From a virus, in the IMG/VR virus record IMGVR_UViG_3300036715_003261, positions 40,692 to 104,691 of that record: 64,000 nt of DNA, one strand, 5' to 3'. Positions 3,487 to 35,403 of this stretch are shown piece by piece. Positions within the stretch are counted from its first letter, which is position 1; the number at the start of each line of letters is the position of its first letter. Made by a program: the position numbers and the translations under genes. The notes beneath the pieces were generated by a model. That model was not told where the DNA came from and searched no databases. It saw only the letters and a program-made list of their open reading frames with translations.

Positions 3487-3698
3487 AGGGCCCCCATGAG
3501 ATCATCGTACGACACGTCGCTCGATGCGGTACGAACTTCGTCGGCGAGGGCGCGCAGACCGCGCGCCGTCTCGGTCTTGGGTTGTGCCGCTGCGACTTTG
3601 ATCGCATGCGTCTCGGCCGTCTTGCGATGGGACGCGGCGTTCGCTTCCGCGAGCACCTCGTCCACGACGAGCGATAGGTGTTGATGCGTGCGGTTCAC
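3483..3698 (-). CDS. Small helical virion-operon protein
   Basis: The 71-residue helical product (MNRTHQHLSLVVDEVLAEAN) overlaps both neighbours by four bases. It is rich in Ala, Lys and Thr with repeated 'KTAE' and 'KVAA' type segments, similar in composition to the other short proteins of this operon. No cysteine pairs or membrane segments are seen. Unknown function; probably a head-internal component. Confidence 0.65.
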   Translation of the reverse strand: MNRTHQHLSLVVDEVLAEANAASHRKTAETHAIKVAAAQPKTETARGLRALADEVRTASSDVSYDDLMGAL

Positions 3699-3967
3699 GG
3701 CGCGCCTCGATGCATCACGGCGTGCAGCGCGTCGATGATCTGCGGCCCGGCCATGCCAGTCGCAATCCCTGCGCCGAAGCCTGTGTTCTTGGCGCGTTCG
3801 CGCGCGGCTTCGTCATGGGCATGCATGAGGCCGGCGCCAAGGGCACCGCCGCCAAGCAACGCACCACCACCAAGCAACGCCTTGACGAGCGCGGGATCCG
3901 CGGCCGTCTTCGCTTCCGCTGCCTGCTTGAGGCGAGCGAGCGCGTCGATGTGAACCACGTCAGCCAT
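3695..3967 (-). CDS. Small glycine-zipper protein
   Basis: The 90-residue product starts MADVVHIDALARLKQAAEAK, which resembles the A-x-x-x-G-x-x-DAL-x-RF motif shared by other genes of this operon. Residues 33-48 form a glycine-zipper (ALLGGGALLGGGALGAG), a pattern found in membrane-inserting or oligomerising segments. It overlaps its downstream neighbour by four bases. A virion protein ejected into the host envelope is one reading; a scaffold peptide is another. Confidence 0.65.
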   Translation of the reverse strand: MADVVHIDALARLKQAAEAKTAADPALVKALLGGGALLGGGALGAGLMHAHDEAARERAKNTGFGAGIATGMAGPQIIDALHAVMHRGAP

Positions 3968-3970
3968 GGC

Positions 3971-4543
3971 TCAGCGAGCGCCCTCGATCAGCTGAAGAGT
4001 GTCACGGAAGCCGGCGACGAAGGACTCGCTCGCCACCTTGTGGATCTGCTCGACCGTGTCGTTCCAGCCCTTGGCGTACGCCGACTCGGCCAGCTTTTCG
4101 AGCTGACCCATCGTGGACGTGTAGCCGAGGGTGGCCGCTTCCTTCACGAGGTCCGGGTTCTCGGCAGCGAACTTCTCGAAGTCCGATGACCCTCCTGCGA
4201 CTGCGGCGGTCTTCGCGAGGGGCGCGGCCTTGTCGGCCGCCTCCTTGTACTGAGACGCGCGAGCCATGAAGCCGTCGCACATGGCGGCGCCATAGAGCTG
4301 CGCCTCCTTGGCGAGGGCCTCGTGCTCGGCCTTGCTCAGGTCAGCCGCGATCTTGGTGAGGTCTTCGATCGGCGAAGTCTGGCTCGCGGTCTTGGACTGC
4401 ACCGCCGGAGCGGTCGCTTCCTTGAGCGCTTGCTTCAGACGCTCGCCGGCGTCTGTGGTTGGAGACGCAGATCCGGTGGGCGCAGACGCGCTCGCGGTCT
4501 TCTCGCCGCCTTTGATCATCCCGAGTGCGTTTGAGAGCTTCAT
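3971..4543 (-). CDS. Helical internal virion protein with repeated G-x-x-D motifs
   Basis: The 190-residue product is almost entirely helical and rich in Ala, Lys and Glu. The C-terminal third holds tandem versions of a short helix (AYAKGWNDTVEQIHKVA and SFVAGFRDTLQLI) that look like the motif at the ends of other proteins in this operon. It is the first gene after the protease gene and has its own promoter-like element at 4570-4575. A scaffold or internal core protein cleaved by the neighbouring protease would fit. Family not recognised. Confidence 0.7.
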   Translation of the reverse strand: MKLSNALGMIKGGEKTASASAPTGSASPTTDAGERLKQALKEATAPAVQSKTASQTSPIEDLTKIAADLSKAEHEALAKEAQLYGAAMCDGFMARASQYKEAADKAAPLAKTAAVAGGSSDFEKFAAENPDLVKEAATLGYTSTMGQLEKLAESAYAKGWNDTVEQIHKVASESFVAGFRDTLQLIEGAR

Positions 4544-4569
4544 GGATTGCCGTCTCCGTTACGGTGAAA

Positions 4570-4598
4570 ATGATAGTGGGCCGTGCGCGGAAAAACAA
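4570..4598 (-). promoter_or_regulatory. Putative promoter for the 4543 gene
   Basis: On the minus strand TTGTTT (4593-4598) and TATCAT (4570-4575) are 17 bases apart in the 57-bp gap before the ATG at 4543. The -10 hexamer is preceded by CAC and followed by TTTC, as in other CTATMAT elements of this window. Confidence 0.5.
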
Positions 4599-4600
4599 AT

Positions 4601-7438
4601 TCAAGTCAAGACGATGGAACCGAGAGCTTCCGCCACCTGATCCAAAGTTGCCAGGGACGAGATCTTGATACTCGAGAAATCGAACCCGCGCGCCTTCGGT
4701 TGCGCGCATTCGATGAGATGGACGATCGCTGCTTGCGACGCAGTCTTTGCTGACAGCTCGGTGATGTCGGGGATGTCGTAGCCTTCGTCAGTGCGCATCG
4801 TTCCACCTGGGCGCTTGCCCAGCGTTGCTGCACCGAGAGCCGTCGTACCGACGGCAAGCGGCACCTTGAACTTGCGCATCCACGGGAACGCGGTGAGCGC
4901 CTTGTAGCCGCCCAACAGCAAACCCGTTCCACCGAGAACCTTGCCGACATGCGCACGCGTGACCGCGTCTTGTGCATCGATCGCAGCACCGCGTGTGGTG
5001 TCACCGTACGGCGTGTGTAGCACGTCCGTCGTCGGCGCCGCATCAGGACGAAGACCGATGCCCTCGGGCACGAGCCGTCGGTAGAGCATCTCGCCAGCGT
5101 ACGCGCGCTTCTCGCGAACGTTCGCGAAGAACGGCATCAAGGTGTTCGCGATCTTCGACGACTCGAGCGCGCTACTCTCGATCAGCTCGTCCAGAATCTC
5201 TGGACGGTCAGCGAATATGTTGAGCGACCAACGCGCGGCTGCAGCCACCTTGGCAAGCGTGTACGGAGACAGCTGCAATATCTGACCGGCAAGCTTGGTA
5301 GATGCAAGCGCAATGAACTCGGCGTCCTTGAAGACAACGCCGTTGGTCGCTGCAGCGCTGAGCACTTCACCAAGTGGGTACATGAGCAGCTGGTTTGTGT
5401 TGATGTTCTCGGACGACGCGAGCTTGGGGCCTGCGTGATCACGGAACTTCACGATGAACGACCGCTCGTCAGGCGTGAGCGTGCTCGAGGCGAGAGGCTC
5501 GGCGCGGATCACCTTGTCGATGTCGGAGAGTTTTTGCGATGCACCACTCTTGAGCGCGAGACGCTCCGCGATCGCTCCAAGCTCTGCGGAGAGCCGTACC
5601 TCGTGAACGTAGGCGACCTTCTTGAGCGTGTAGCCGGTGCGATCGGCGGGACGGAACACGCGCGAGATGTCGAAGAAGTCGGGCGAGGGGTTGTGGACGT
5701 AGTCCTTGAACCCGTTCTCGTCGACCTGGTTCATCGCGAACTTCACGTGATCGCAGTAGTCCGCGCGCGTGGGCGCTTCGTTGCCACAACGGGCGCAGAC
5801 ATCGCGCTTGATGCGACAGTTGTGAACCGCTAGCCCCTCGATGAGGTAGCTCTCGTCTTCCTCGACCTCTAGATTGTAGACGTCCGTCTCCATGTAACGC
5901 GCGTCGATCTCGCGGATGGGGGTGCAAACGTACTCGTCGACGATTTTCCGGCTTTCCTTCTTGGCCAGGACTTCGTGCGCCACCACCTTGGCGCAGACCC
6001 CTCGCAGTCGATGGGCCCATTGTGCGCCGATGTGGACGACCCATTCGTACGTGTCTGTCGCGCTGAAGCCGCTGCCCGCTTTGTGGGTGAGTTGATTGCA
6101 CGAGGCGAGGATGCCCAAACGCGGCAACATGCGCGTCCACTGCGCGGCGAGCGCGTCCGACGCCGTTGAAATCTTGAGCCACCCGTCACGTCCGCACCCG
6201 TCGCCGTTGGCGTACGCGCCGAACATCTCGCGCTGCATCGCCGTGTTCCACTGCATTGCCGCCGGTGACAACTGCTTGGTCTTCGCCAAGGCGCTGCCGT
6301 GCGTGTAACACAGGGCCGCAAGACGATCGTCACAGACCAGAATGCCGCGCGCCTCGGACGTGTTCTTGCGTTCGAACGTCCAGGGCGCGTTTCGTGTTCC
6401 GAACTCGGCGCACAGCGCAGCAATCTCGCCGTGGACCGCGTCGTCCTTGTGCGTTGTCAGCTCGATGGCGTAGGGCGCGCCGTCGCGCCAGATGATGTGA
6501 CCTTCGGCAAGGTAGTAGCCGAACAGGCGTGCGAACGCGCGGGTCAGGTACTCGGGCGACGTCTCTGTCCGATCGATGGGTGCAAGCAGGAGCTGGTCAT
6601 CGAGACAGTTCGCGTGCGTCCAATCACCCTGCACCTTGGCATCGTCCCGCCACTTCCACTTCGCGCCCCCAGGCTGAAAACGCTTGACGCTCTCGAGCGG
6701 CGTCGCGAAGAACGGATGTTCTTCGGTTGCGTTAATCTCCGGATGCGCTTCCGCACGGATCGTGTAGACGTTCCCGCGATACGGACGCTTGTGTGTCTCG
6801 AGTACGCGACGCACACGTCCCCGGTGCGTGACTACCTCGTCACCGACCAGCACGTCTTCGATGCACTTCTGGGTGCCGTCGGCCATCGTGACCTTGGCCC
6901 CCGCGAGGAAACAGCCCATGGATACAGGCACGAACTCACCGTCGCTGGCGCGCTTGACCCACTCGGGGTCCTTGTCGTTGTCGACCGAGACGAGCAGCTC
7001 CACGCGGTGCATGCGCGGGTTCCAGAACGCCTTCTTGACCACGCCGGACGCTTTGGACGGATCTCGGTTCACGTGGTGCTTGAAAGCGTGGGCAGGGTTC
7101 TTCTCGAACGACGCGTAGTGCTCGGTCAGCTCTTCACCGGGCGGCACGAACCAGCGGCGATCGACAGACGCGATCTTGCCACGCGCGGGAACAGGGAACT
7201 CGGGGAACCCGTCACCGTTGCGGTTCGGGCCGTAGGTCTCTTCGGCGCCGAGAGCGTTGAGAAGGAGCGACGTCTTGCCCGGTTCGGGCGCGACCGCCTT
7301 GATGTAGTCGAGCGCCTCGGACGCGTACTTCGTGATGCGGCTGGTGTCGACGCTGCGCCCGTTGTTCCAGGTGAGCACGGTCTGCACTGTCGGCTCTCCC
7401 GTCGGGAAGTAGTCGTCCAGCTCGATGATCTTCTTCAC
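4601..7438 (-). CDS. Putative prohead maturation protease interrupted by an intein
   Basis: The 945-residue precursor contains a 365-residue intein, leaving a 580-residue product. The N-extein carries 'PNRNGDGF' (71-78), 'FKHHVNRDP' (119-127), 'VELLVSVD' (146-153) and 'VPVSMG' (170-175). This order of an NxNGD segment, a His in a HHxNxD segment and a Ser in a VSMG segment matches putative head-maturation serine proteases of many phages, where His and Ser would be catalytic. After the intein a Cys-rich knot follows (C541, then CxxC at about 547-550 and a further Cys), possibly metal-binding. The roughly 250-residue C-terminal extension, with a hydrophobic segment 'VLGGTGLLLGGYKAL', is unusual and might be scaffold-like. 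The gene overlaps the upstream gene by four bases and precedes the capsid genes. The protease call is inference from motif order and context. Confidence 0.65.
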   Translation of the reverse strand: MKKIIELDDYFPTGEPTVQTVLTWNNGRSVDTSRITKYASEALDYIKAVAPEPGKTSLLLNALGAEETYGPNRNGDGFPEFPVPARGKIASVDRRWFVPPGEELTEHYASFEKNPAHAFKHHVNRDPSKASGVVKKAFWNPRMHRVELLVSVDNDKDPEWVKRASDGEFVPVSMGCFLAGAKVTMADGTQKCIEDVLVGDEVVTHRGRVRRVLETHKRPYRGNVYTIRAEAHPEINATEEHPFFATPLESVKRFQPGGAKWKWRDDAKVQGDWTHANCLDDQLLLAPIDRTETSPEYLTRAFARLFGYYLAEGHIIWRDGAPYAIELTTHKDDAVHGEIAALCAEFGTRNAPWTFERKNTSEARGILVCDDRLAALCYTHGSALAKTKQLSPAAMQWNTAMQREMFGAYANGDGCGRDGWLKISTASDALAAQWTRMLPRLGILASCNQLTHKAGSGFSATDTYEWVVHIGAQWAHRLRGVCAKVVAHEVLAKKESRKIVDEYVCTPIREIDARYMETDVYNLEVEEDESYLIEGLAVHNCRIKRDVCARCGNEAPTRADYCDHVKFAMNQVDENGFKDYVHNPSPDFFDISRVFRPADRTGYTLKKVAYVHEVRLSAELGAIAERLALKSGASQKLSDIDKVIRAEPLASSTLTPDERSFIVKFRDHAGPKLASSENINTNQLLMYPLGEVLSAAATNGVVFKDAEFIALASTKLAGQILQLSPYTLAKVAAAARWSLNIFADRPEILDELIESSALESSKIANTLMPFFANVREKRAYAGEMLYRRLVPEGIGLRPDAAPTTDVLHTPYGDTTRGAAIDAQDAVTRAHVGKVLGGTGLLLGGYKALTAFPWMRKFKVPLAVGTTALGAATLGKRPGGTMRTDEGYDIPDITELSAKTASQAAIVHLIECAQPKARGFDFSSIKISSLATLDQVAEALGSIVLT
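5819..6913 (-). mobile_element. Intein with LAGLIDADG endonuclease in the putative protease
   Basis: The 365-residue intein occupies precursor residues 176-540. It begins with Cys (CFLAGAKVTMADG, block A) and has a block-B-like 'EEHPFFAT'. Endonuclease motifs 'LFGYYLAEGH' (intein 130-139) and 'MFGAYANGDG' (230-239) follow. It ends with block F/G 'VYNLEVEEDESYLIEGLAVHN' residues and +1 Cys541. All splicing residues (C1, penultimate His, terminal Asn, C+1) are present, so it should splice. It sits directly after the VSMG segment that probably holds the catalytic serine, a typical choice of a conserved site. Confidence 0.9.
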
Positions 7439-8004
7439 GGCAGAAGGCTCCGCAGTAGGCTGGTCGCATCGCTGCGATGGCGAACGAGCTGGACGAGCAT
7501 CGCGTGCTTGAGGCTTGGGTCGTCGAGCAGATAGCAGCCGTCTTCAAGCACGTCATCGACCATGATCGCAGCCGCGAGCTTCTGCGCCGTCGTCGTGGCT
7601 GGCGACATTCCCGTGTCTACCATCGACCCCAGGCCGCTCGATTGCGACGGCTTGGGGCCTCCACGAAAGATGTCACCGAGGGCCTGCATGCTTCCGACAC
7701 CGGCGGCTGTCAGAAGCGCCTGGTTGCGTGCGTCACGTAGAACGTCGGCGCTGTGGCGCTTTGCATCGCCGAGCATCATGTGTCCGACGCCAAGCGCAGG
7801 CACGCCGAGACCGACACCCCATCCCAACCCCTTCTGCAACGCAGAGAGCGCCGCGGGGTCGAACGCTGCACGCTTGAACAACCCGAACGCGGCGAAGTCC
7901 GCCATCGCGAGCTTCTCACGCAGCGTGGCGCTTGCAGGACGCGCGGACGCGATCTTCTCGGCGAGGAAGACCGACGTCTCGAGGGCTTGTGTGAAGGGTG
8001 TCAT
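7435..8004 (-). CDS. Virion-operon protein with hydrophobic glycine-rich segment
   Basis: The 189-residue product overlaps the protease gene by four bases. It starts MTPFTQALETSVFLAEKIAS, continues with a 'FAAFGLFKRAAFDPAAL' helix and then has a hydrophobic Gly-rich stretch (GLGWGVGLGVPALGVGHMML, about residues 60-80) that could insert in a membrane. The C-terminal part is helical. Together with its neighbours it belongs to a run of glycine-zipper proteins. It may be an ejected virion protein; not recognised. Confidence 0.65.
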   Translation of the reverse strand: MTPFTQALETSVFLAEKIASARPASATLREKLAMADFAAFGLFKRAAFDPAALSALQKGLGWGVGLGVPALGVGHMMLGDAKRHSADVLRDARNQALLTAAGVGSMQALGDIFRGGPKPSQSSGLGSMVDTGMSPATTTAQKLAAAIMVDDVLEDGCYLLDDPSLKHAMLVQLVRHRSDATSLLRSLLP

Positions 8005-8006
8005 GA

Positions 8007-8453
8007 TCAGCGAAGCGCTTGCGCGACTCCCTGGCTGAGTTCCGGCGGGAGGCCGTGCATCCCAGAAGCGATGCCGGTCAGGCCGCCGAGCAGAGCGCCG
8101 AGAGCGCCCGCGGGGACCGCGCTCTTCTGCTGCTCGTACGGATCGCTCGACAGGAAGTGCGGTGCCATGCCGATGCCTGCACCGGCAGCAGCCGGCATCG
8201 CGGCACGGCGAAGCAGCGCCATGAGCGCGGGGCTCTCGGCGATCTTCTCGTTGGTGAGCGTGGCGTACGCGGCGATGCCATCTGCGATTGCGCGCGCTTC
8301 CTTGCGACGCACGAAGGCCTTCATGCCGATCGTCGCGACGGCTTCCTTGATCGTCAGCTCGGGAACGCCGAGCATCGCGCCGGCGACCTTGTGGAGGCCG
8401 AGGTCACGGACGGCGGAGGTGACGTGCGGAGGGATGAGGTCATCGAGGGTCAC
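8007..8453 (-). CDS. Virion-operon protein with glycine zipper
   Basis: The 148-residue product lies between two similar genes, with two bases separating it from the next and a four-base overlap upstream. The first 80 residues are helical with Lys/Arg. The last 50 contain 'AAMPAAAGAGIGMAPHF' and 'GALGALLGGLTGIASG', glycine-zipper segments of the kind found in membrane-associated proteins. There is no signal peptide. Unknown function; candidate ejection protein. Confidence 0.65.
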   Translation of the reverse strand: MTLDDLIPPHVTSAVRDLGLHKVAGAMLGVPELTIKEAVATIGMKAFVRRKEARAIADGIAAYATLTNEKIAESPALMALLRRAAMPAAAGAGIGMAPHFLSSDPYEQQKSAVPAGALGALLGGLTGIASGMHGLPPELSQGVAQALR

Positions 8454-9730
8454 GAGTTGCCTCCAGGCAGTTGCAGTTTTTCGAGGTCGCGCGCGAGATC
8501 CTGGACGGGAGGCGTCACCCAGCGATGGTTGTCGGAGTGGACCTGTCCGTCGTACTTCAGGTTCTTGAGGTCACCGCCGGTGTTGCCTGCTGGATAGGGG
8601 TGCAGATCGCGGAGCGCAGTAAGGGGCCACTCCTCGCGCGGTTGTCGGTTGGGAACCACGCCGCGAGCGTAGCCTTGATGTGTCGACGCTTCAGGCGCCT
8701 TGTTCATGTGCGTGTGCAATGCGCCGCCGAGCCCGCCCGCGGCTGCACCGCCGAGAGCGCCGCGCATCGCGCCGCCGGCTCGGTCGTCCTTGTCAGCAAG
8801 CGCACCGCTGATTGCGCCGACACCGCCGCCCATCAACGCTCCTCGGCCGAGCGAGGGAAGCAGTTCGGCGAGCGCGGGCGGCAGCACCATGGCGCGCTTG
8901 TCGTTGCCGCCGGTCACCGCGCGTTCCGAATCCGCGAGCAGCTTGATCGACATGTAGTCCGGACCCGAGCCCGACATCACAGCCTGACGCAGGAACGACC
9001 GTACTGCATTCTTGTCGGTCGAGAGCACCGGCGCGAAGCGAGACATCGTGTGGTAGGCCTCCATGAGCGTCTTGTCGTCCGCGTTGGCGAGGACCGAGTC
9101 GGTCTTCTTCAGCTCACCCAAGATGGCTTGACGTGCGGCCTCGTCTCCGGCATGGCTTGCGGTCTCCATCGCCTTGTTGGCCATGTCGCGCAGGAGGTTG
9201 GCGCCGGTGGTGCCCATCTCCTTGCCGAACGTCTGGATGGCCGCGCCCGCTCCCATGGAGAACGGATCCTTCTTCTCACCGAATTCGCGTCCGGTGATCT
9301 TGCGTTTGATGAGGTCGCCGATGCCGCCCGAGATGCCTTGTGCGACGCCCGTTACGGGCGATGCCCCGAGCTGTCCGAAGCTGCCCTTGAGGCCGCTCGC
9401 ACCGCCAGCTCCGAACTCGGCGCCCTGGCCTGACATCTCGCGACCTGCGTGCGCGATGTTGCCTCCGATGGCTTGTCCTGTCGCACTCGCGCCCTGACCG
9501 AGCATGTGTCCGAGGATCGCTGACCACGGGTTCGCCGCGGCCGTCTTCATCGGGTTGTACTCGGCGCGGTTGAGCTGTTGCTCCGTCGAGTGTGCACGAT
9601 CGATCGCCTTGTGCACGATGCCCGGGATCATCGCACCCACTGCAAGAGGCAGCATGACGCCTGCGCGCTTCTCGACGAAGCGACCAACGCCGTGACGCAC
9701 GGCCAGTTCGAGCACGTCCGCTAGCTGCAC
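8450..9730 (-). CDS. Virion-operon protein with two membrane-like segments
   Basis: The 426-residue product most likely starts at a GTG (VQLADVLELAVRHGVG) that overlaps the preceding stop. A longer upstream open frame exists but is the shadow of the gene before. An N-terminal hydrophobic stretch (GVMLPLAVGAMIPGIV, about residues 24-40) and a long Gly/Ala zipper (ALMGGGVGAISGAL, then GALGGAAAGGLGGALH) near residues 310-360 are the main features. The middle is Gly- and Ala-rich and helical. It is reminiscent of phage internal proteins that build a channel through the envelope, but no family is recognised. Confidence 0.65.
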   Translation of the reverse strand: MQLADVLELAVRHGVGRFVEKRAGVMLPLAVGAMIPGIVHKAIDRAHSTEQQLNRAEYNPMKTAAANPWSAILGHMLGQGASATGQAIGGNIAHAGREMSGQGAEFGAGGASGLKGSFGQLGASPVTGVAQGISGGIGDLIKRKITGREFGEKKDPFSMGAGAAIQTFGKEMGTTGANLLRDMANKAMETASHAGDEAARQAILGELKKTDSVLANADDKTLMEAYHTMSRFAPVLSTDKNAVRSFLRQAVMSGSGPDYMSIKLLADSERAVTGGNDKRAMVLPPALAELLPSLGRGALMGGGVGAISGALADKDDRAGGAMRGALGGAAAGGLGGALHTHMNKAPEASTHQGYARGVVPNRQPREEWPLTALRDLHPYPAGNTGGDLKNLKYDGQVHSDNHRWVTPPVQDLARDLEKLQLPGGNS

Positions 9731-11321: not shown

Positions 11322-14300
11322 GGTCGTCCGGCTCCTTGACGGCCTGCACCCCGCGGCTCAAGCGCAGGACCAGGTCACCAAGCCCCTTGAACGTCGACTG
11401 GAGGTTGTCCTCGAGTCCCGAGAAGGTCTGCTCACCGATCTGCGGCTTGAGGGCGGACTCCTGCATCCACAGCGTCAACATGACGCGCGCGAGGTTGTCG
11501 ACCGCCTTCTCGAGGTTCGGCAGGTACTGGCCCACCACGCTATGAAGTGCCGGCGACTGCGCGAGCGTTGCCACAGCAGCTGCGTCGAACATGTCTGCCG
11601 AATGCAACTGCGCGGCTTGATCGAGGAAGTGCGGATTGACCTCCTGCGGAAGCGTCTGCGCGTTCGGGCCGTCTGGCGGCATCGTCGCGTTGGGCGGCTG
11701 TTGCTGCTGACCCATCGACGGATCCATGCCGGGCTGTCCGCCCATGCCACTCATCATCGATGGGTCTTGTCCCATGCCGGGCTGTCCGCCCATGCCCATC
11801 GACGGATCCATGCCGAGCTGTCCGCCCATGCTCATCGACGGATCCATGCCGGGCTGTCCGCCCATGCTCATCGACGGGTCCTGTTGCGCCTGGCCACCCA
11901 TCATCGACGGGTCACCTGCAGCCGGCGGGAACGCGCCGCCCGGCGGCATGCCCGGCGGAACAGCGGCACCCATCGACGGGTCTTGGGGCGGTGCACCCAT
12001 GCCTGCCGTCATGCCAGGCGGCATGCCGGGTTGCCCCGTCGCGAGATTCATCGAAGACGGAGGAGCGCCCATCGCCTGCGTCTGCACGCTCGGCGCAGGA
12101 GGCGCGCCACCCGCGATCTCGGACGAGCGCTGGAGCAGCATCTGGATGGTCTGCTGCTTCTCGACCAGCTTCTGCATCTCCTGCTGGATGTGCTGGTCCA
12201 TCTCCATCGCCGCGAGGTCGAGTGGAGCGGGCGGAGGCGGGGCCGGAGGAGCCTGGCCCATGGCGGCCATCGCCGCGTCCTGGCCGAGGTTCGGGTCGCC
12301 GCCCATGCTCGGGTCCATGCCGGGATCGCCGCCCGGAGGTCCGTCGCTCGGGGGCGCCTTCTTCTTCGGCTTGTCGGAGTCGGACTTCTTCTTGTCGTCG
12401 TCCGCCGCGCCTTTGAAGTACGACTTCAACGCTGCCGACTTTTCGTGACCGATCGAGAAGTGATGTCCGGTGGATGTCACGATTGGAACGCAACCACGAT
12501 CATGGTCGTAGGGCAGGATCGCGATGCTCTCACCCTTCTGAATGACGTGACCGTCCGGCAGGCGCATGTCGGCGTGCGCGTCATGCATCACGGTTGCATG
12601 TTCGGCGTGCGGCGCGTACTGACGCCACCAACCGGGTGTTTGATCCGCAAGCTTGTCGAGGCGCATCTGCACCCGCGCGAGCTGTTGGCTCGTCGCAATC
12701 CACGCAGTCGCCTTGTGGTCTGCTGCCGTCTTGACGAGCAACGCCTCGGCATCGACGACCGAGATGTTGCACGCGAATGCGAGCTTCTTGAGCGCGGGCA
12801 CGAAGCTCAGCGGTGCCATCCCGTTGATGGAGAACTGCTTGGCGCCTGCGTCCTTGATCGAGACCTTCTTCGCGCCGACCGCGGAGAGCATGTTCGAGAC
12901 ACATGCCTGTAGGTCGAGCGCTGACTGGAACCAGCCGCGCTCGTTGAGGCGCACCTTAAGCGGCACCCAGATGAAGTCCGTCGGAAGGTAGACGACATCG
13001 GCGCCCTTGGGCATCCAGATCGTGTTGTACGGATACGCTGCGTCGGTCGAGAGCGTCTTCTCGGGACCGAAGTCTCCAGGCGTCGCCTTGATGCGACGGA
13101 CGCCATCCGACCCCGTCGAGATCGACTTGATCGTGACGGGACCCGTCGCTTGGAACGTGGTGCCGCGCTGGCGGACGAAGAAGCCCTTGCCCGCCTTGGG
13201 CTCACCACTGACGTCCGTGAACATGCGGGCATGCAACGAACCGCCGACACCGTCCGCGATCGAATCACGGCCCACGAGCCTGTTCGGCTCGATGTAGTCA
13301 CCGTTGTCGAACACCGCGAGGAACGGCTTGGCGTCATACCCACGGCGCGTGGCGTAGCTGCCCTCGTCTGGCCGCCCGTGCGGGTAGACCTTGTTCGAGC
13401 TGCCGTGCGTCTCGGGATCGGTGTACGAGTTGTCGACGAGTGGGTTGTGTGCGGGAACGGCCGGACGTCGGCCGTAACGCGTGCCCTCATCGAACAGATC
13501 GATCGGGAAGGGCATCACGAACGCGGTGCGCTCCTTCCCGTCCGATGCGTAGAGCGTGTAGATGCCGGGCTGCTTGGGCTCGACCCAGTGCTCGTAGGGC
13601 TGCTCTTGCACCGCCATGTTGCGGTTCAGGCGCTCGTCCTTGGCGGCGAAGCCCTTCTTGCGCACACCCGTGTACGCCTCCCCGGCCTTGTCACCGAAGA
13701 TGCGCTTGAAGTCGGTCGGTGTGTTGTCGGCGTCGGCGATCCACAGCGCACCGCCATGTTGCTGCCTGGCCGCGACCTTCTCGAGGCGGGGCTGAAGTGC
13801 GGCCGCGAGCGTCTTCATGCCGTACGTCGACGCCGCCTGCTTGAACAGCGTCGGGTTCCGTTCGAGAAGTCGGACGTAGGCAGCCTTCATCGTGTTCGGC
13901 GCGGCCGAGAGCAACGACGGGAGCATGAGGTCTGCTTCGCTCGCGACCTTCTCGAGCGTCTCCACCGTCATCACCCGTGCGACGTCGATGAGCGCCTTGG
14001 GCACCCACGAGGCATACGAGAATCGGCCGGTGATCGGCGGCACGACGACGTTGCGGATGTCGACGTCTGTGTAGAGCGTCTCGGGCGTCTTGACACCCGC
14101 GCCCAAGGACGCGAGTCCGGTCTTGTCGATCTCGTCGAGCCAACCCTTGGAGAGCGGCAGGAAGACGTTCAGGGCCTTGTGATAGAAGACCTCGAGCGGC
14201 TTGATGGCGTTGTCGACCATCACCACCGGAACGTAGATCGGTTGGTTGTGGCGCAAGACCACGAACGACCCCACACCTGACCCTTTGTCGATGTCGACAT

Positions 14301-14466
14301 CGAGCACCTTGAAGGTGACGACGTCTTGCATCAGGTCAGGCATACGCGTCGACAGCAGGTTGTACGCCATCTCCGACATGCCCTGTTCGAACAGGGCTGT
14401 CTCTTGGTCGGGACCCGCGTTCATGCCGGCCTGGAGCTGTTGAGTGCGGGGCGACATTGCCGGCAT
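11311..14466 (-). CDS. Large virion protein with Met/Gly/Pro repeat region
   Basis: The 1051-residue product is one of the longest in the operon. Residues 1-700 look like an ordinary folded protein, with an N-terminal helical part and a long beta-rich middle. A Lys/Asp linker (DKPKKKAPP) follows. From about 710 to 950 the chain is low complexity, with repeats of 'GGQPGMDPSM' and a coiled-coil patch (EMQKLVEKQQTIQMLLQRSS). A final helical domain of about 100 residues closes it. There are no catalytic motifs I recognise. The context, between internal-type proteins, points to a structural protein of the head interior or a vertex. Confidence 0.75.
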   Translation of the reverse strand: MPAMSPRTQQLQAGMNAGPDQETALFEQGMSEMAYNLLSTRMPDLMQDVVTFKVLDVDIDKGSGVGSFVVLRHNQPIYVPVVMVDNAIKPLEVFYHKALNVFLPLSKGWLDEIDKTGLASLGAGVKTPETLYTDVDIRNVVVPPITGRFSYASWVPKALIDVARVMTVETLEKVASEADLMLPSLLSAAPNTMKAAYVRLLERNPTLFKQAASTYGMKTLAAALQPRLEKVAARQQHGGALWIADADNTPTDFKRIFGDKAGEAYTGVRKKGFAAKDERLNRNMAVQEQPYEHWVEPKQPGIYTLYASDGKERTAFVMPFPIDLFDEGTRYGRRPAVPAHNPLVDNSYTDPETHGSSNKVYPHGRPDEGSYATRRGYDAKPFLAVFDNGDYIEPNRLVGRDSIADGVGGSLHARMFTDVSGEPKAGKGFFVRQRGTTFQATGPVTIKSISTGSDGVRRIKATPGDFGPEKTLSTDAAYPYNTIWMPKGADVVYLPTDFIWVPLKVRLNERGWFQSALDLQACVSNMLSAVGAKKVSIKDAGAKQFSINGMAPLSFVPALKKLAFACNISVVDAEALLVKTAADHKATAWIATSQQLARVQMRLDKLADQTPGWWRQYAPHAEHATVMHDAHADMRLPDGHVIQKGESIAILPYDHDRGCVPIVTSTGHHFSIGHEKSAALKSYFKGAADDDKKKSDSDKPKKKAPPSDGPPGGDPGMDPSMGGDPNLGQDAAMAAMGQAPPAPPPPAPLDLAAMEMDQHIQQEMQKLVEKQQTIQMLLQRSSEIAGGAPPAPSVQTQAMGAPPSSMNLATGQPGMPPGMTAGMGAPPQDPSMGAAVPPGMPPGGAFPPAAGDPSMMGGQAQQDPSMSMGGQPGMDPSMSMGGQLGMDPSMGMGGQPGMGQDPSMMSGMGGQPGMDPSMGQQQQPPNATMPPDGPNAQTLPQEVNPHFLDQAAQLHSADMFDAAAVATLAQSPALHSVVGQYLPNLEKAVDNLARVMLTLWMQESALKPQIGEQTFSGLEDNLQSTFKGLGDLVLRLSRGVQAVKEPDDHAS
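11712..11935 (-). repeat. Imperfect tandem repeats inside the 1051-residue gene
   Basis: A unit of about 36 bases reading, on the plus strand, CATCGACGGATCCATGCC then GGGCTGTCCGCCCATG recurs about five times with shorter variants in between. It encodes Met/Gly/Pro repeats (SMGGQPGMDP). Frame is kept in all copies, so this is a protein repeat rather than a CRISPR or origin. Confidence 0.75.
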
Positions 14467-14478
14467 ATGGGACCTCGT

Positions 14479-14646
14479 CTACGAACTGGGGAAGCTGACG
14501 ACTTTGGAGAGATTCGCGTCAGGAAGACCGCCCAGCTGCTTCGTCTTCTGCGCCTTGAGCGAGCCGAGGGTCGGGTTCAGGATCTCAGCAAGCTTCTCTT
14601 CGACGACGAGACGCCCCATTTCGCGGATGTGGCGCGGAAGGCTCAC
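14479..14646 (-). CDS. Small protein between two large structural genes
   Basis: The 55-residue product (VSLPRHIREMGRLVVEEKLA) starts at a GTG overlapping the stop of the 439-residue gene (GTGA) and ends 12 bases before the next ATG. It fills a 176-base gap. The sequence is a helix-rich, lysine-containing peptide with 'AEILNPTLGSLKAQ' in the middle. An internal Met at position 10 is an alternative start. The function is not recognised. Confidence 0.6.
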   Translation of the reverse strand: MSLPRHIREMGRLVVEEKLAEILNPTLGSLKAQKTKQLGGLPDANLSKVVSFPSS

Positions 14647-15962
14647 GCGCGCTGTGCCGCGTCGATGCGACGGAAGAAGTCGCGAAGCGAGGCCTCCTTG
14701 TGCTCTTCCTTCTTCGACTCGCCTTCCTCGTGCTTCTTGCCCTCGATCTTCTCGCGGATGAAGTCGGGCATGCCGCCCTTGTCCTTCTCCTTGTCGTCGT
14801 CCTTCTTCTCGTCCTTCTCGTCCTTCTTCATGAAGGGCGGGAGGTCGTCGGCCTGCTTGGTGCCCTGGTTGCCAGAGCGGCCATCGTAGGCGCCGGGCCG
14901 CGAGTGCGTCGCGTCCGGGTTGTGCTCACGGTAGCGATCACCGCGCGAGCCCGGCGGCAGGCTGGAAGAACCCGTCGACGCATCCGCCGCCTCCTTCTGC
15001 AGGCCGCGGAGGTAGTACGCCTTCTCCTCGGTCGTCATGCCCATGCAGGCGCGGACCGCGGCGATCTTGGCGTTCTCGTGGAGACCGCCCGGGAGGTACT
15101 CGTGCACCTCGGCAGCGACCTTCTTGAAGAGCGCGATGTACGGGTCCTCGGCAGCCGCCTTGGCGGACTGCTGGGTCACCGAGTTCGAACCGCTCGGCGA
15201 CTCGCCGGGCTTGTTCGGCTGCGCGGTCTCCTTGCCGACGACCGCGGGGCCGCCGACGAGGTTCATCATCGCGCCGAGTGCACCCTGCGTGGGCAGGACG
15301 GCGTAGCCTGCGGGACGTTGTGCCGCGTCCATCTTGGCCTCGGCCGACGACATGGCGGTGTTGCCCTTGTCGCCACCCATGATCGTCGAGCCCTCGGCCG
15401 ACTTGCGGAAGAGGTCAGCGAGCGACGCGGTGCGCGAGTGCTCCTGCACCGAGTTGTCCTTGGAGTCGGTCTCCTTGGGCTTGTTCGGCTGCTCCTCTTC
15501 CTTGCCGACCGTGCCCGGCCGGGTGTCGATCTCGGTCTTGCCGCGGCTGTCCTCGGCATAGCCGGGAGGACGCTGCGAGGCGTCCATCTTGGTCTCGCCC
15601 GCGGGCGCCTCGGCTTGGGTGTTCCCCTTGTCGCCACCCTCGATGGTCGAGCCCTCGGCGGCCTTCGTCATCAGCTGGGTCGCGTTGCGATCCGCGAGCT
15701 GCGCGACGTCTTCCCACGTCGCGAGCTTGTTGAAGCTCGCCGCCTTGAAGCCGGGCTGCTGCTTGATCCAGTCGGAGGCTGCGACCAGGTCCGTCCCGAT
15801 CTTGTGGGTCGCCTCGCGCGACACACCCTTCAGAGGGTCGATGTCGACACGGTCAGCGATGTAGTCCGCGACCTTCGCCGCGGTGGTCTCGTCGGGGAAC
15901 GCGGCTGCGCCGCTGTTGACCAACGCGGTCTGGATGCCACGGACGTACGCATGCTTGAACAT
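14643..15962 (-). CDS. Virion protein with internal duplication and tag-like N-terminus
   Basis: The 439-residue product begins MFKHAYVRGIQTALVNSG, a good copy of the motif shared by several neighbours. The middle has two imperfect copies of a unit of roughly 105 residues: each has 'STI-GGDKGNT', 'KMDA-QRP-GYA', 'GKE--QPNKP-E' and 'NSV---S'. The last 100 residues are highly charged (Lys, Asp, Glu) and end in 'LRDFFRRIDAAQRA'. It has its own promoter-like element upstream. A scaffold or internal head protein that is cleaved during maturation would fit; this is inference. Confidence 0.75.
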   Translation of the reverse strand: MFKHAYVRGIQTALVNSGAAAFPDETTAAKVADYIADRVDIDPLKGVSREATHKIGTDLVAASDWIKQQPGFKAASFNKLATWEDVAQLADRNATQLMTKAAEGSTIEGGDKGNTQAEAPAGETKMDASQRPPGYAEDSRGKTEIDTRPGTVGKEEEQPNKPKETDSKDNSVQEHSRTASLADLFRKSAEGSTIMGGDKGNTAMSSAEAKMDAAQRPAGYAVLPTQGALGAMMNLVGGPAVVGKETAQPNKPGESPSGSNSVTQQSAKAAAEDPYIALFKKVAAEVHEYLPGGLHENAKIAAVRACMGMTTEEKAYYLRGLQKEAADASTGSSSLPPGSRGDRYREHNPDATHSRPGAYDGRSGNQGTKQADDLPPFMKKDEKDEKKDDDKEKDKGGMPDFIREKIEGKKHEEGESKKEEHKEASLRDFFRRIDAAQRA

Positions 15963-15997
15963 TTTTGCCTCGGGGAAGCTGTGCAGAGATTGACGAA

Positions 15998-16026
15998 ATG
16001 ATAGGACGAGACTCTCAAATATCCAA
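15998..16026 (-). promoter_or_regulatory. Putative promoter for the 439-residue gene
   Basis: On the minus strand TTGGAT (16021-16026) and TATCAT (15998-16003) are 17 bases apart, in the 72-bp gap before the ATG at 15962. The -10 context CCTATCATTTCG matches the other late elements. Confidence 0.55.
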
Positions 16027-16034
16027 CAGTTGCG

Positions 16035-16271
16035 CTAACCGAGCGCGCGAGCCTTTTGAGCCCCCGCTGCCATGGGCGGCGCCGCGGATGTTGGAGCGGC
16101 CATCGCGGGAGGCAGTGGTGCTGCCATTCCCGCTGCGCCAGGACTGCCCGACGTGCCACCGCCGACGCCACCACCGACATTCATACCACCAGCACCCATG
16201 CCCATGCCTTGAGCGAGCTTGAAGCGGGTGAGTGCATCGGTACGGCCTTTATTATAGGCGTCGTTGATCAT
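16035..16271 (-). CDS. Short tag-like protein with Gly/Ala-rich tail
   Basis: The 78-residue product begins MINDAYNKGRTDALTRFKLA, one of the clearest copies of the shared A-x-x-x-G-x-x-DAL-x-RF helix. The rest is a Gly, Ala, Met and Pro-rich low-complexity tail. The start overlaps the end of the preceding 148-residue gene. Essentially the protein is the motif plus a flexible tail, which suggests that the motif itself is functional, for example for packaging into the prohead. Confidence 0.7.
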   Translation of the reverse strand: MINDAYNKGRTDALTRFKLAQGMGMGAGGMNVGGGVGGGTSGSPGAAGMAAPLPPAMAAPTSAAPPMAAGAQKARALG

Positions 16272-16714
16272 TGATAGAGGTCCTTCGGTTTACTGCCGAG
16301 TAGATGTCCGAGGCCACGTCCAGCTCGTGCGCCCGCTTGTGCGAGAAGAGGTCCGCCAAGCATGCCAAGCGCCGGGAAACCATATGCGCTCCCAGCGATT
16401 CCACCAAGCGCACCGAGCGCGTTTGATAGGTGGCCCTCTTGCGGGTTTGACCGCATGGCAGAGAGTGCCATGAGCGGTGCTGCGATCGTGCCAGCACGTC
16501 CAATCCAGTTCAACGGCTGGCCCTTGACGCTGGGCCACCATACGTTCTTGGTGGAAAGCATTCCACCCGGAGAGAACGTACGCGGTCCTTCCACGAAAGC
16601 ACGCCCAGGCTGTCCGATGAAGGTCTGCTTGATGCCTTCCATGATGCCCGCGTCTTTGACTTGGAAGCGCGCAAGGGCATCTTCGATACCCTTTGCATGT
16701 GCTCGAGCGATCAT
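16268..16714 (-). CDS. Tag-like virion-operon protein with glycine zipper
   Basis: The 148-residue product begins MIARAHAKGIEDALARFQVK, again the shared motif. The second half has a hydrophobic Gly/Ala zipper (ALGALGGIAGSAYGFPAL, MLGGPLLAQAGARAG) and a Lys-containing end. Its ATG overlaps the stop of the RNA polymerase beta-prime C-terminal gene (TGATG), so the two are probably produced together. Candidate internal virion protein; no known family recognised. Confidence 0.7.
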   Translation of the reverse strand: MIARAHAKGIEDALARFQVKDAGIMEGIKQTFIGQPGRAFVEGPRTFSPGGMLSTKNVWWPSVKGQPLNWIGRAGTIAAPLMALSAMRSNPQEGHLSNALGALGGIAGSAYGFPALGMLGGPLLAQAGARAGRGLGHLLGSKPKDLYQ

Positions 16715-18495
16715 CAGTATTGCCCCTCTTCACCAAGGCCAAACTCTGTGCCTGCAGCGTACGCTGGAACAGGGGACGCCCCGTGTAGGTTGGAGACATC
16801 GCCGCGGTGGATGCCTGTTAGCAATGACTCCTTGAGGTAGCGGTGTGCGAGGCGTGCCATCCAATCCGGATTGAGAAGAGGTGTGCGCGACGCCGGGCGC
16901 ATGAACGGCAGTGCACGCGGCCCCTGGCTGGACGTCATCACCGACGTCACGCCGTGGCGTACGAGCTGGTCTGCGATTGGCTGCGTCACGACAGTACCCG
17001 CCGTGTGGTGGAGGATGCCGTCCGCGAGCGTCTCGCCGATCGCGTCTGTCGTCGGGAGGCGTTTCTTGGATGCGGCCAGGGACGCATGGAACCGATTGTA
17101 GTCGACGACGTCACCCTTGATGAATGCGTCGTCGGGACCGGGATCAATGATCTGGACGTGGTTGAGCACGGACTTGGCGAGCGTCTCGAGGTGGCGCTTG
17201 TCGACCTCGGAGCCTGCGCGCTTGTAGACATCGGAGAGCGCGTCGACGAGGTAGCGTCGACCTTCACCGAGGCCTTTGTGTTGAACGATCTCGTCAGGCT
17301 TGGGTACGCCATCGGAGAGCAAGTCCCCTGCATACATCGATTGCCCGATGCCCACGACGACCTTGTGTGCGGGAGGCACGTAGTGGCTACCGTCGCCGAC
17401 GAAGACGTAGTGACCGCCCTGCGGAGCCTTGTCGATCTTCGTGATGGAACCGTCGCGGTCAGCAAGTACCGCCTTGTGTGCGAACGATGTCGGAATCTCG
17501 AGCAAGGCTCGCACGCCTTTGATGCCCTCGAGCCGCTTCTCGTCGTCAACACCGACGACGCGCCCGCCGTGCTTCGCGTTGAGGGCGAACTGCGTGAGCG
17601 GCTCGGCGAGCGCTTGAGCCGCGCGAACGCCAACGTTCGTTCCGATCGAATGCATGCCACCCGAAGACGACAGGCCTTGGCAGCGCTGACAGACGCCGTG
17701 CGCAGCTTCGCAGGTCATCGGAGAACGGACGATGACCTCCTTGCCTTCTTTGGCAAGGTGAGACGCGTACTGCGGCGTGATCAGCTTGTTCGTGCCCGCC
17801 TGGTAGCGGTCGATGAGGTGTGCGTCGGTCGGCAACATCGCGATGCCGTTCTTGGTGCCGCAGTCCACCGTCGTCACGAGCTGGTCGCCCATGTTGTTGA
17901 CGAGGATCTTCGCAAGGTCACCGGGCTCGACAACCGAGATGTTCGAGACCACCGCGTTGACACGCGCCTGACCGCCCATGATCCACGCATCCGCAGGCTT
18001 GAGCCCTTCGGAGAAGCTCTTGTCGACGAGCCACGGAATGACCTTGCCCTTGGAGTCTTCGGCGAAGACGGGTGCGCCCACGGTGCGCATGAGTTGTGCA
18101 GCATTGCCGCGACCGCCGGCGCGAACCATCTCGCCCATCGTGCCTGGGTGGTTGCGTGCCAGCATGAGCATCGCATTCTGTCCGCCCACGAGCGTCTTGA
18201 CCTTGTCCGCGTTGGTCGTCGCCTTTCGAAAGGCTTCGACGTGCGGCTTCAAGGCAGCGTCGCGTTCAGCAACACGGGGCGCGATGTCGTCGAGGCCGAC
18301 GGAGATGCCGTCGAGCGTTGCGACCTCGTCACCGAGACGCTTGAGCTTGGTCACGACGTCGGGGTACTTGCTCGGGTCCTCTTTTGCGACACCGAGGAGG
18401 ACCTTGTTCAGGTTCCCCTTGGTGAGCGCCCCCTGTCCTCGCCACTTCGATGGGAGGATGGAGTCGACGAGGTGCTGTCCGAGCGTTGTCGCCAT
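16714..18495 (-). CDS. RNA polymerase beta-prime subunit, C-terminal part
   Basis: The 593-residue product starts at MATTLGQHLVDSILPSKWRG; this ATG is preferred over one 51 bases upstream that would run into the J-domain gene. It continues bacterial beta-prime where the fused gene at 21010-26418 stops. Visible are a 'GRGNAAQLMRTVG' segment, a bridge-helix-like region (GLKPADAWIMGGQARVNAVV), the four zinc Cys of the C-terminal beta-prime site (VDCGT, MTCEA, GVCQRC) and the trigger loop 'ALAEPLTQFALNAKHGG'. In the loop the catalytic-type His is kept, while the Arg before it (E. coli R933) is Asn. The end is shorter than in bacteria and has a phage-type tail. Five bases separate it from the J-domain gene and its stop overlaps the next start. 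It would assemble with the fused subunit as one active centre. Confidence 0.92.
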   Translation of the reverse strand: MATTLGQHLVDSILPSKWRGQGALTKGNLNKVLLGVAKEDPSKYPDVVTKLKRLGDEVATLDGISVGLDDIAPRVAERDAALKPHVEAFRKATTNADKVKTLVGGQNAMLMLARNHPGTMGEMVRAGGRGNAAQLMRTVGAPVFAEDSKGKVIPWLVDKSFSEGLKPADAWIMGGQARVNAVVSNISVVEPGDLAKILVNNMGDQLVTTVDCGTKNGIAMLPTDAHLIDRYQAGTNKLITPQYASHLAKEGKEVIVRSPMTCEAAHGVCQRCQGLSSSGGMHSIGTNVGVRAAQALAEPLTQFALNAKHGGRVVGVDDEKRLEGIKGVRALLEIPTSFAHKAVLADRDGSITKIDKAPQGGHYVFVGDGSHYVPPAHKVVVGIGQSMYAGDLLSDGVPKPDEIVQHKGLGEGRRYLVDALSDVYKRAGSEVDKRHLETLAKSVLNHVQIIDPGPDDAFIKGDVVDYNRFHASLAASKKRLPTTDAIGETLADGILHHTAGTVVTQPIADQLVRHGVTSVMTSSQGPRALPFMRPASRTPLLNPDWMARLAHRYLKESLLTGIHRGDVSNLHGASPVPAYAAGTEFGLGEEGQY

Positions 18496-18500
18496 GTTGG

Positions 18501-19280
18501 TTAGAGACCGAAATGTTGTAACGCAGCCGCTTTGCCCATCCACCACGCTTCTTTCATGCTCGAGAAGTCAGGGTGTTTCCGTGCAGCGGCCCACTGTGCA
18601 TTCAATGACTGCATGTCGGCCGTGTTTCCGCCACGGTCTGGATGCATATTCATTGCTTGTTCTCTGAAGCGACTCTTCGCCTCCGCCTGTGTTTGCGCTC
18701 CGCTCATCCACGACGGAAGTCCGCCACTTGGCGCTCCGCGTGGAGCTGATTGTCCTATAACAGCACTTGGACCCGCACCAGCGCCCTGTCGCGCCTTACG
18801 CCAGTTGTTGAAAACATCTTCGTTCTGCGCACCCCAGTGCTTGTCCTCCGCTTGTTGACGGTATTTGAAACCGTCTTGTGCGGACTGGCTTTGTTGCGTG
18901 TGTTTGTACGCCTCTTCTTTGGCGCTCTGTCGTGCCTGCCGTGATGCGGACGCACGGGCCTCATCTTGCGCCCGCCACTGTTGTCGCATTCTGTCTTCCC
19001 AGGACGGACCTGCTGGACGCGGACCTGCGCTTGGACCAGGAGCACTTGGACCTGCTGGACGCGGACCTGCGCTTGGACCAGGAGCACTTGGCCCCGGAGG
19101 ACGCGGTCCTGCGGTGGGTGCCTGCTTACCAAGGTGGTAAAGGGCACCGCCGGCGCCTCCGATCGCTGCGCCTTGCAGCGCACCTTCTTCACGATGACCT
19201 TTTTCAGCGGTCAAGGCTCCGCCGGCTGTGCCGATCGCCGCGCCCATGAGGCTGCGCGCTAGTAGAGGGTTCATCGGCAC
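18501..19280 (-). CDS. J-domain protein of the virion operon
   Basis: The product has about 259 residues. A GTG at 19280 has GGAGG eight bases upstream; the ATG at 19274 is the alternative. The N-terminus is a glycine zipper (MGAAIGTAGGAL, GAAIGGAGGALY). Pro/Gly/Ala repeats follow (GPSAPGPSAGPRPA), then a helical Gln/Lys-rich part. The C-terminal segment is J-domain-like: 'EAKSRFREQAMNMHPDRGGN' contains the HPD motif that stimulates DnaK ATPase. The last 17 residues (KEAWWMGKAAALQHFGL) resemble the motif found at the ends of neighbouring proteins. The gene lies between the two RNA polymerase genes, so it may help that enzyme fold, thread through the tail or refold in the host. The role is inferred; the J-domain is seen. 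Confidence 0.75.
   Translation of the reverse strand: MPMNPLLARSLMGAAIGTAGGALTAEKGHREEGALQGAAIGGAGGALYHLGKQAPTAGPRPPGPSAPGPSAGPRPAGPSAPGPSAGPRPAGPSWEDRMRQQWRAQDEARASASRQARQSAKEEAYKHTQQSQSAQDGFKYRQQAEDKHWGAQNEDVFNNWRKARQGAGAGPSAVIGQSAPRGAPSGGLPSWMSGAQTQAEAKSRFREQAMNMHPDRGGNTADMQSLNAQWAAARKHPDFSSMKEAWWMGKAAALQHFGL
19006..19089 (-). repeat. Two exact 42-bp tandem repeats in the J-domain gene
   Basis: The unit beginning GGACCTGCTGGACGCGGACC on the plus strand is present twice in a row (19006-19047 and 19048-19089), with a partial degenerate third copy after it. It encodes a Pro/Gly/Ala/Ser linker. The exact identity suggests a recent slippage duplication. Confidence 0.85.
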
Positions 19281-19281
19281 G

Positions 19282-20007
19282 TCAGTATCCTCCACCCATC
19301 GACATGCCGCCGCCCATCATCGCGTGCTGCCGGGCCTCTTCCTCTTTCTCGGCCTGGTTGTGCTGGTGCAACATGTAGAGACCTCCGCCCGCGAGCAGCG
19401 TCGGTGCAAGGGTCTTGAGGTTGCCGACTGCAGCACCGCGTTGTGATGCACGCGCCATGTCCATGCTGTGCTCGGGTACGGCGCCTGTGATGAAGTTCGG
19501 GTTCGCCTTTCCACCCATGCCACCGCGTACATTCGCGGCGAAGTCTTTCGCGGCGCCCCACTGACCGGCTCCGAAGTCCTTGACCTTGGACGCGAAGCTA
19601 GGACCCGCAGCAGGGGCAGGCAGGGGAGCAGGGGCTGCGATCTTGAAACGCACGAGTGCGTCGGCAACACCCACACGATAAACCCCGGCCATCTTGGGAT
19701 TCCCGAGGGGGGCACGGTGCATGTTGTGGCGTTCGAATGTCGACATGAGGTCTCCGTGGAAAGACTCAGGCATGTCCATCCCTCCGTGCATGTTGGGGCG
19801 TCCCCCGAGCCCCTTCAGTTCTTCGTTCACTGCTAACTGGTCTGGCGTCAGTTGCCCTTGCATCGGCATCGCCATTTTTCCCCCGCTCAACAAAGAGTCG
19901 ATGAGGGAACCCGCTGTAGGTTTGGGGGCTTTACCTGTGGCTCGATCGATGATGTGGCCGATCGAGTTTTCAGAGGTTCTCGTCTCTTCACGGGGCATGA
20001 GTGACAT
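19282..20007 (-). CDS. Virion-operon protein with internal tag-like motif
   Basis: The 241-residue product overlaps its upstream neighbour by a base. Residues 1-95 are hydrophilic and partly disordered. Around residue 105 is 'AGVYRVGVADALVRFKIAAP', another copy of the shared motif, here internal and followed by a Pro/Ala linker as if a new domain began there. The C-terminal end is Met/Gly-rich. No known domain is recognised. If the motif marks a cleavage or packaging boundary, the N-terminal 95 residues could be a removable pro-part. Confidence 0.65.
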   Translation of the reverse strand: MSLMPREETRTSENSIGHIIDRATGKAPKPTAGSLIDSLLSGGKMAMPMQGQLTPDQLAVNEELKGLGGRPNMHGGMDMPESFHGDLMSTFERHNMHRAPLGNPKMAGVYRVGVADALVRFKIAAPAPLPAPAAGPSFASKVKDFGAGQWGAAKDFAANVRGGMGGKANPNFITGAVPEHSMDMARASQRGAAVGNLKTLAPTLLAGGGLYMLHQHNQAEKEEEARQHAMMGGGMSMGGGY

Positions 20008-20468
20008 CAGACGCCTCCAAAAGCAGTGTTCTGTCCCATGTCACTGAGCCGGCTCGCCGAGTCGCCGCCCGCAAGGTTCGAGGGAGATCCCCACGCAGTA
20101 GTACGGTCGAGTGGATCGCGGGCTGCAAGCTGTACATCAGGCGACACGTTCACGTCGATCTGCTTGAGCACGTCGGCGAGGTTGTCTGCGGTGCCGTCCA
20201 CATCCGCCTTCTTCGAGCCGCGGTTCGCTTCCGTCTTGTGAGCTGCATCGTAGCCGTGGAACGTGCGGCTTGGGATCTTCAAGCGCAGCTCCTCTGCTGC
20301 TTGCTTGAAACCGAACTGCTCGAGCGCGTCTGCGATGCCGCGCACGTGCGACTTCTTGACATGCTCGGGCAGCTTCTTGCCCTTGGGCGTCGCGTTCGCA
20401 AACTCGCGGGCGACATCCGGGTGTTGCGAGAACAGGTAGCGACGTTGAGCCTCGCTACGGAACGGCAT
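20007..20468 (-). CDS. Phage protein with MPFRSEAQRR N-terminus and tag-like motif
   Basis: The 153-residue product begins MPFRSEAQRRYLFSQHPDVA. That opening is common in small phage proteins of unknown function. The region 'SHVRGIADALEQFGFKQAAE' (about residues 42-61) is one of the best copies of the motif shared with at least five other genes here. The C-terminal half is hydrophilic. It overlaps the LAGLIDADG gene by 14 bases. A small internal virion protein is likely; function unknown. Confidence 0.7.
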   Translation of the reverse strand: MPFRSEAQRRYLFSQHPDVAREFANATPKGKKLPEHVKKSHVRGIADALEQFGFKQAAEELRLKIPSRTFHGYDAAHKTEANRGSKKADVDGTADNLADVLKQIDVNVSPDVQLAARDPLDRTTAWGSPSNLAGGDSASRLSDMGQNTAFGGV

Positions 20469-32391: not shown

Positions 32392-32400
32392 AGTAGCGAC

Positions 32401-33273: not shown

Positions 33274-33277
33274 CTCC

Positions 33278-33915: not shown

Positions 33916-33923
33916 GAGTTCCC

Positions 33924-35179: not shown

Positions 35180-35338
35180 ATTGAAGAACAACCTACCAAG
35201 CGCGCCACGTGTGATCAAATAGTTCCACGATCGGACGCTACCCGTTGGGTGTCGATCCCGACACGTACACCAGAAACGCTTGGGTGGGGTTCGCCTATAC
35301 ACCCCAGCCCTAGCGCGACGAATTTCGGTTCGCGATGC

Positions 35339-35368: not shown

Positions 35369-35403
35369 GACTTCCCCTTTCTCGCATTCCAAAAGGACAT
35401 GAC

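Follow-up and report, generated by a model that had tools for sequence, protein, structure and literature searches.

Packaging tags of phage heads and the phages compared

The internal proteins of phage T4 are diverse and have in common only a capsid-targeting sequence (CTS) for entry into the scaffolding core; this sequence was proposed to bring the proteins into the core and to be cut off by the head protease (PMC3012670, PMC5694885). In the giant phages SPN3US and phiKZ the virion RNA polymerase is packaged, and the ejection proteins of SPN3US carry propeptides, most of them longer than 100 residues, which are cut by the prohead protease at A-x-E (PMC5694885, PMC10052503). The diverged SPN3US paralogs gp53 and gp54 have an identical 15-residue N-terminus (PMC5694885, PMC10052503). 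Here, we describe a short motif, called the tag below, which recurs in otherwise unrelated late proteins of the virus record IMGVR_UViG_3300036715_003261 (G000). The window is a stretch of 64,000 nucleotides corresponding to bases 40,692–104,691 of this 104,691-base record, and the remaining part of the record was also analysed.

The tag resembles the CTS of the T4 proteins IPI, IPII, IPIII and Alt in being a short peptide common to unrelated late proteins. Unlike the CTS, it has the pattern of a small-x3-small-x3-small helix that stands N-terminally, internally or C-terminally, what follows it is K-x-A and not a Glu-type site, and at least 14 proteins carry it; when the carriers were read by eye, no T4-like L-x-E was seen at a fixed place. 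The propeptides of SPN3US and phiKZ resemble the arrangement proposed here in being cargo propeptides with a three-residue protease code, while, unlike in SPN3US, K-x-A is proposed as the code and the tag is about 20 residues long. By analogy, the tag probably works like the T4 and SPN3US systems, and we do not claim its membership in the T4 tag family, because its sequence, positions and proposed cut code differ. No description of the tag or of a K-x-A head code was found in the literature searched, which was covered in part.

The record was compared with eleven related phages (late regions or whole records, among them those labelled G002, G003, G007, G008, G009 and G010), which were retrieved via portal and capsid protein matches, and with the named relatives Salmonella phage Arash and Vibrio phage D69. 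Gene starts were called by a simple codon-usage method. Among named phages, a related capsid protein (38–41% identity) and portal were found only in Arash and the Vibrio phages D69, D181 and D148. Like the record studied here, these phages have the gene order portal, RNA polymerase, protease, scaffold, capsid, scaffold candidates that contain repeats and are rich in K-x-A, and a capsid protein with K-E-A. With 219 capsid relatives detected in the viral collection, the uncultured phages related to Arash form a large family, in which most late proteins are without known function.

A short motif recurs in unrelated late proteins

The pattern A-[YFH]-x-x-G-x-x-x-A-[LF]-x-x-[FY] was present in 14 late proteins of the whole record, which are otherwise unrelated. 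Ten of the copies are located at or near the N-terminus, three are internal (one with an uncertain start), and one is C-terminal. When each copy was scored with a leave-one-out matrix, from which it had itself been excluded, all 14 exceeded the shuffles of their own protein (z 4.4–10.9), so that the enrichment over shuffled proteins raised by the sequence-only reading of the window was seen for every copy. The six main copies described in that reading, in the 439-, 148-, 78-, 241- and 153-residue products and in the J-domain protein, were all found in their places, although the copy in the 439-residue protein lacks the [RQ]F ending of the consensus given there. The search over the whole genome and the relatives showed that the motif is wider than had been noticed, with related versions in other phages and eight further copies upstream of the window (record coordinates 25050–40687, minus strand) in proteins of 59–287 residues, for example MTLKQAYTKGRRDAFKKFALG, MLRTAFQRGREGALARFGVK and MTLVAAYTQGKNAALAHFKLA. 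The upstream copy in a 213-residue protein was picked up by the matrix though it was absent from the seed. Two weaker copies had also been suspected, and that at 3695–3967 is not supported, as it contains no Gly and its pattern is not kept in the G003 ortholog, while that at 3971–4543 was right in kind, being three tandem tag-like 19-residue repeats.

All 14 carriers are encoded inside the minus-strand late block, which comprises 53 of the 121 genes of this record (hypergeometric 3e-6). The carriers scanned had almost no family-library matches and no domain in common, and the 439- and 153-residue carriers gave no match by tblastn against named phages. At the fixed positions (Gly, Ala and Leu) the copies use different synonymous codons, which makes recent copying or duplication of the tag unlikely and indicates that selection acts on the protein. 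A DNA-level element was rejected on the same grounds. The possibility that the carriers are membrane channels was also rejected, because hydrophobic 19-residue stretches were present in 3 of 66 strong N-terminal carriers versus 237 of 1,970. Gly-zipper patterns were more common in the strong N-terminal carriers (10.6 versus 2.6 per 1,000 residues).

Among carrier orthologs, the frequency of the Gly is 0.91–1.00; the second Ala is always present (1.00) outside the 439-residue family (16 orthologs), in which the Gly is kept and the second Ala reaches only 0.38. The remaining parts of the proteins, by contrast, are 16–70% identical. The motif was also recovered by an unseeded search, in which all 16-residue windows near N-termini were compared within each genome. 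This search gave a score of 176 for G000 versus at most 145 in nine shuffles. The same tag architecture in a different dialect was found in three more distant relatives: xYxxGxxxALxKLG in G007 (167, shuffles at most 140), AYxxGxxxAxx[DE]xG in G008 (161, shuffles at most 149), and AxxxGxxxA[FL]KxAG in G009 (163, shuffles at most 162, which is marginal alone). In G003, where low-complexity repeats dominate, the unseeded search gave no motif above the shuffles. The features that the copies within one genome have in common differ from those of other genomes, which suggests that the tag copies of each phage address one common partner. No isolate carrying the tag was found: in Arash the only recurrent N-termini that the unseeded search returned were those of paralogs, which are of a different kind, and a scan of 41 kb of D69 with the tag matrix did not detect the tag. 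A different N-terminal sequence, LPTVTQTWTxSFNNRY, is common to three adjacent paralogs of about 350 residues encoded upstream of the window (record 4140–7279 of G000).

K-x-A in tagged and head proteins and the proposed mechanism

A second feature, K-x-A, is associated with the tag. The core matrix used for this comparison ended at the L of AYxxGxxxAL, so the downstream letters had no influence on scoring. K-x-A was present within 11 residues after 63 of 130 core-matrix matches, versus 8 of 94 weak matches and 7 of 166 shuffled ones. It followed 41 of 66 strong N-terminal matches, while at the corresponding place of other proteins it was present in 118 of 1,919. These counts are not independent, because some of the strong matches are orthologs of each other. 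In the orthologs of the 14 carriers, K-x-[AGS] was found after the tag in 80 of 120 cases (61 of them K-x-A), compared with 16% at other places of these proteins, and any constraint on the middle residue is absent.

The same three-residue pattern marks the head proteins. Of the 1,600 gapped residue pairs, K-x-A ranked first in enrichment in the family of the putative scaffold (75 occurrences versus 20.7 expected), and those at residues 15, 51, 64, 79, 124, 134, 150 and 169 are kept in 71–97% of 59 orthologs. The K-x-A-richest proteins of each genome are mostly encoded in the head block, and in Arash they are gp220, gp223 and gp225. The assignment of the major capsid protein to the HK97 fold is based on a profile match to a solved capsid protein, and its ortholog in Arash is annotated as major capsid protein. 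In this protein K31-E32-A33 was invariant in 83 of 83 aligned sequences, including Arash, amid variable neighbours, and it is likewise present in D69. In the putative head maturation protease, K274-V-A276 was invariant in 28 orthologs, directly after the conserved N-terminal part. These positions are those expected of a head protease code that would serve release of the capsid propeptide, break-up of the scaffold and autocleavage. A 329-residue protein encoded in the replication region (window 48451–49440) is as rich in K-x-A as the head proteins (10 seen, 1.7 expected), as are its orthologs in five relatives, and it is probably a head or core protein whose gene lies outside the head block.

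The last third of the scaffold contains the tandem repeats mentioned above. The column similarity at an offset of 19 was 0.37, while the other offsets tested (5–39) gave values from −1.13 to −0.14. When the tag matrix was run on the scaffold alignment, the three best placements, at residues 136, 155 and 174, were spaced by exactly 19 residues, and the score of the best one was equalled by 70 of 2,000 column shuffles, which is weak alone. The repeat consensus A-x3-G-[YWF]-x2-T-[VML]-x2-[IL]-x-K-x-A resembles the tag plus K-x-A. The scaffold candidates of D69 (L065 34777–35586) and Arash gp223 (L123 8209–8976) have their own, different tandem repeat of the LIDNGIDFAEAVELVKEAS type, which is bounded by K-x-A.

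We consider it fairly likely that these two features together constitute a portable prohead-targeting tag, probably cleavable and similar to the T4 CTS in its working. In the first part, a short helix with small residues at positions 1, 5 and 9 (A-x3-G-x3-A) would provide a face for tight packing, with an aromatic residue at position 2 and hydrophobic ones at positions 10 and 13 on its flanks, and it would probably dock the cargo into the scaffold core during prohead assembly. The second part, K-x-[A/G/S], which is adjacent in most copies, would be the site of the head protease after the start of maturation, and the cut could release the cargo inside the shell, while cutting at the same sequence would detach the capsid propeptide and dismantle the scaffold. 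From the sequences we infer a docking partner, packaging, cleavage and its position, and injection of the cargo. The sequence-only reading had offered two alternatives, a packaging tag and a protease recognition or assembly element, which seem to be the two parts of a single bipartite element. That reading is partly supported: its comparison with T4 fits best, given that the carriers are located in the late block, the tags are lineage-specific, and K-x-A is shared with the head proteins. More tentatively, the tag may be a detached single unit of the 19-residue scaffold repeat, in which case the cargo would enter the head by imitating the scaffold, and each lineage would keep scaffold, tag and protease code in step. 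The family would then have an evolvable addressing code, made of the small-x3-small-x3-small helix and K-x-A, which would allow the recruitment of many new cargo proteins to the virion.

If the proposal is correct, the proteins that are packaged, and probably injected, in the uncultured relatives of Arash could be recognised by a simple sequence rule. The proposal would also provide a testable cut-site rule for the heads and a short tag for loading proteins into phage capsids, and it would further suggest that cargo becomes attached to the head by borrowing a scaffold unit.

Several observations weigh against the two-part tag. K-x-A follows the tag in 0 of 17 sequences of the 439-residue family and in 0 of 3 of the 103-residue family, which has R-x-[AG] instead; it is missing downstream of the tag in the J-domain protein, and in G008 it follows only 1 of 6 strong N-terminal matches. 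Some matches in G007, G008 and G010 are on the strand opposite to the capsid gene, and some of these are probably due to chance. The identity of the putative head protease is based on the PHROG match and synteny, while its structural model was of low confidence (predicted local distance difference test, pLDDT, 66) and gave no PDB match at E 0.001; in the viral library it matched mostly unannotated phage proteins, with prohead proteases only at E > 0.06.

K-x-A could also be a helix feature and not a cut site. This would be so if the tag were an uncleaved docking helix whose partner, the same for all carriers, would be the portal, the capsid interior or the virion RNA polymerase, with K-x-A forming part of the helix surface. 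The K-x-A of the scaffold are indeed largely located in predicted helices, of which the two long ones span residues 58–115 and 130–189, and the occurrence of the tag at either end or inside proteins, as well as the rarity of K-x-A after the G008 tags, would suit such a helix. On the other hand, the scaffold K-T-A-S sites at residues 15 and 51 are in unconserved, low-confidence linkers, the capsid K-E-A ends the N-terminal extension as the end of a propeptide would and stays invariant there, and the middle residue is free to vary, which together make uncleaved docking unlikely. It is more doubtful still that the tag sends proteins to the tail or baseplate, not to the head. The carrier genes at record 25–40 kb are interspersed with genes that have their Arash relatives in the tail/structural block, but other carriers are encoded beside the head block and the RNA polymerase genes, the K-x-A that accompanies the tag is the code of head proteins, and the scaffold has tag-like repeats. 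Finally, the helix is very improbably a functionless remnant of gene duplication with the rest diverged, since, even though the carriers are neighbours of similar size, several of them short and rich in Gly, Ala and Pro, their orthologs keep the Gly and second Ala above the rest of the protein, the codons differ between copies, the helix is C-terminal in the J-domain protein and internal elsewhere, and the dialects shift together within a genome.

Individual carriers and neighbouring genes

Table 1. Locations of the tags and of the related head-protein features (window coordinates, except where record coordinates are indicated)
Feature	Position	Strand	Details
439-residue protein, tag at N-terminus	15903..15950	(-)	gene 14643-15962; AYVRGIQTALVNSG, residue 5
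78-residue protein, tag at N-terminus, ends K-L-A	16212..16259	(-)	z 8.0; AYNKGRTDALTRF, residue 5
148-residue protein, tag + K-D-A at N-terminus	16649..16702	(-)	z 10.9; AHAKGIEDALARF, residue 5
J-domain protein, tag is its C-terminus	18504..18548	(-)	gene 18501-19295; z 4.9; AWWMGKAAALQHFGL, last 15 residues
241-residue open reading frame, internal tag + K-I-A	19636..19683	(-)	z 4.7; VYRVGVADALVRF, residue 109
153-residue protein, tag + K-Q-A	20298..20351	(-)	z 6.8; SHVRGIADALEQF, residue 40
ADLFR carriers	window 14643-15962; record 40193-40372 and 38946-39809
Major capsid protein	1528..2466	(-)	profile match 6wkk_A (Gp27 major capsid protein), E 2.4e-05
Capsid K31-E32-A33	2368..2376	(-)	predicted end of N-terminal propeptide
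Putative scaffold	3971..4543	(-)	between protease and capsid genes; helical
Scaffold C-terminal tandem 19-residue repeats, tag-like	3974..4138	(-)	AATLGYTSTMGQLEKLA / AYAKGWNDTVEQIHKVA / SFVAGFRDTLQLIEGAR
Putative head maturation protease	4601..7438	(-)	phrog_18299, 7/8 members, best E 1.5e-9; synteny

The carriers differ in the surroundings of the tag. In the 439-residue protein no K-x-A was found in the 12 residues after the tag, and in the J-domain protein, which matches DnaJ weakly (E 0.014), a K-E-A immediately precedes it. The copy in the 241-residue open reading frame, previously described as internal, is so if translation starts at 20007, in which case 105 residues precede the tag, while none or few do in the orthologs of other contigs, which start at or beside the motif. 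An alternative start Met is located at 19692. The internal position may be real, because the first ATG, at 20007, follows a GGAGG and overlaps the preceding stop. In the 153-residue protein an extra N-terminal domain of the MPFRSEAQRRYLF type precedes the tag; the G002 ortholog is without this domain, so that its tag is N-terminal. In this family K-x-[AGS] followed the tag in 12 of 12 sequences scored. A second short element, ADLFR, which often comes after K/R-T-A (RTASLADLFRKSA, KTAAANPLADLFRAIQK, GSGFADLFRHQG), is common to three tagged proteins.

Further observations concern the neighbouring genes. The putative protease is interrupted by an intein (Hint, LAGLIDADG_3) right after the conserved VSMG|C, near the probable active site, and this intein is absent from the relatives. 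Homologs of the beta and beta-prime subunits of multisubunit RNA polymerase are encoded in the late block (window 21010–26418 and 16714–18546), and genes of small tagged proteins lie between them and next to them. Reading by eye, the first RNA polymerase gene appears to have an intein-like insert, and beside this polymerase gene an open reading frame (window 20455–21003), starting with an AAMIDGEGTV segment, resembles a small LAGLIDADG homing endonuclease.

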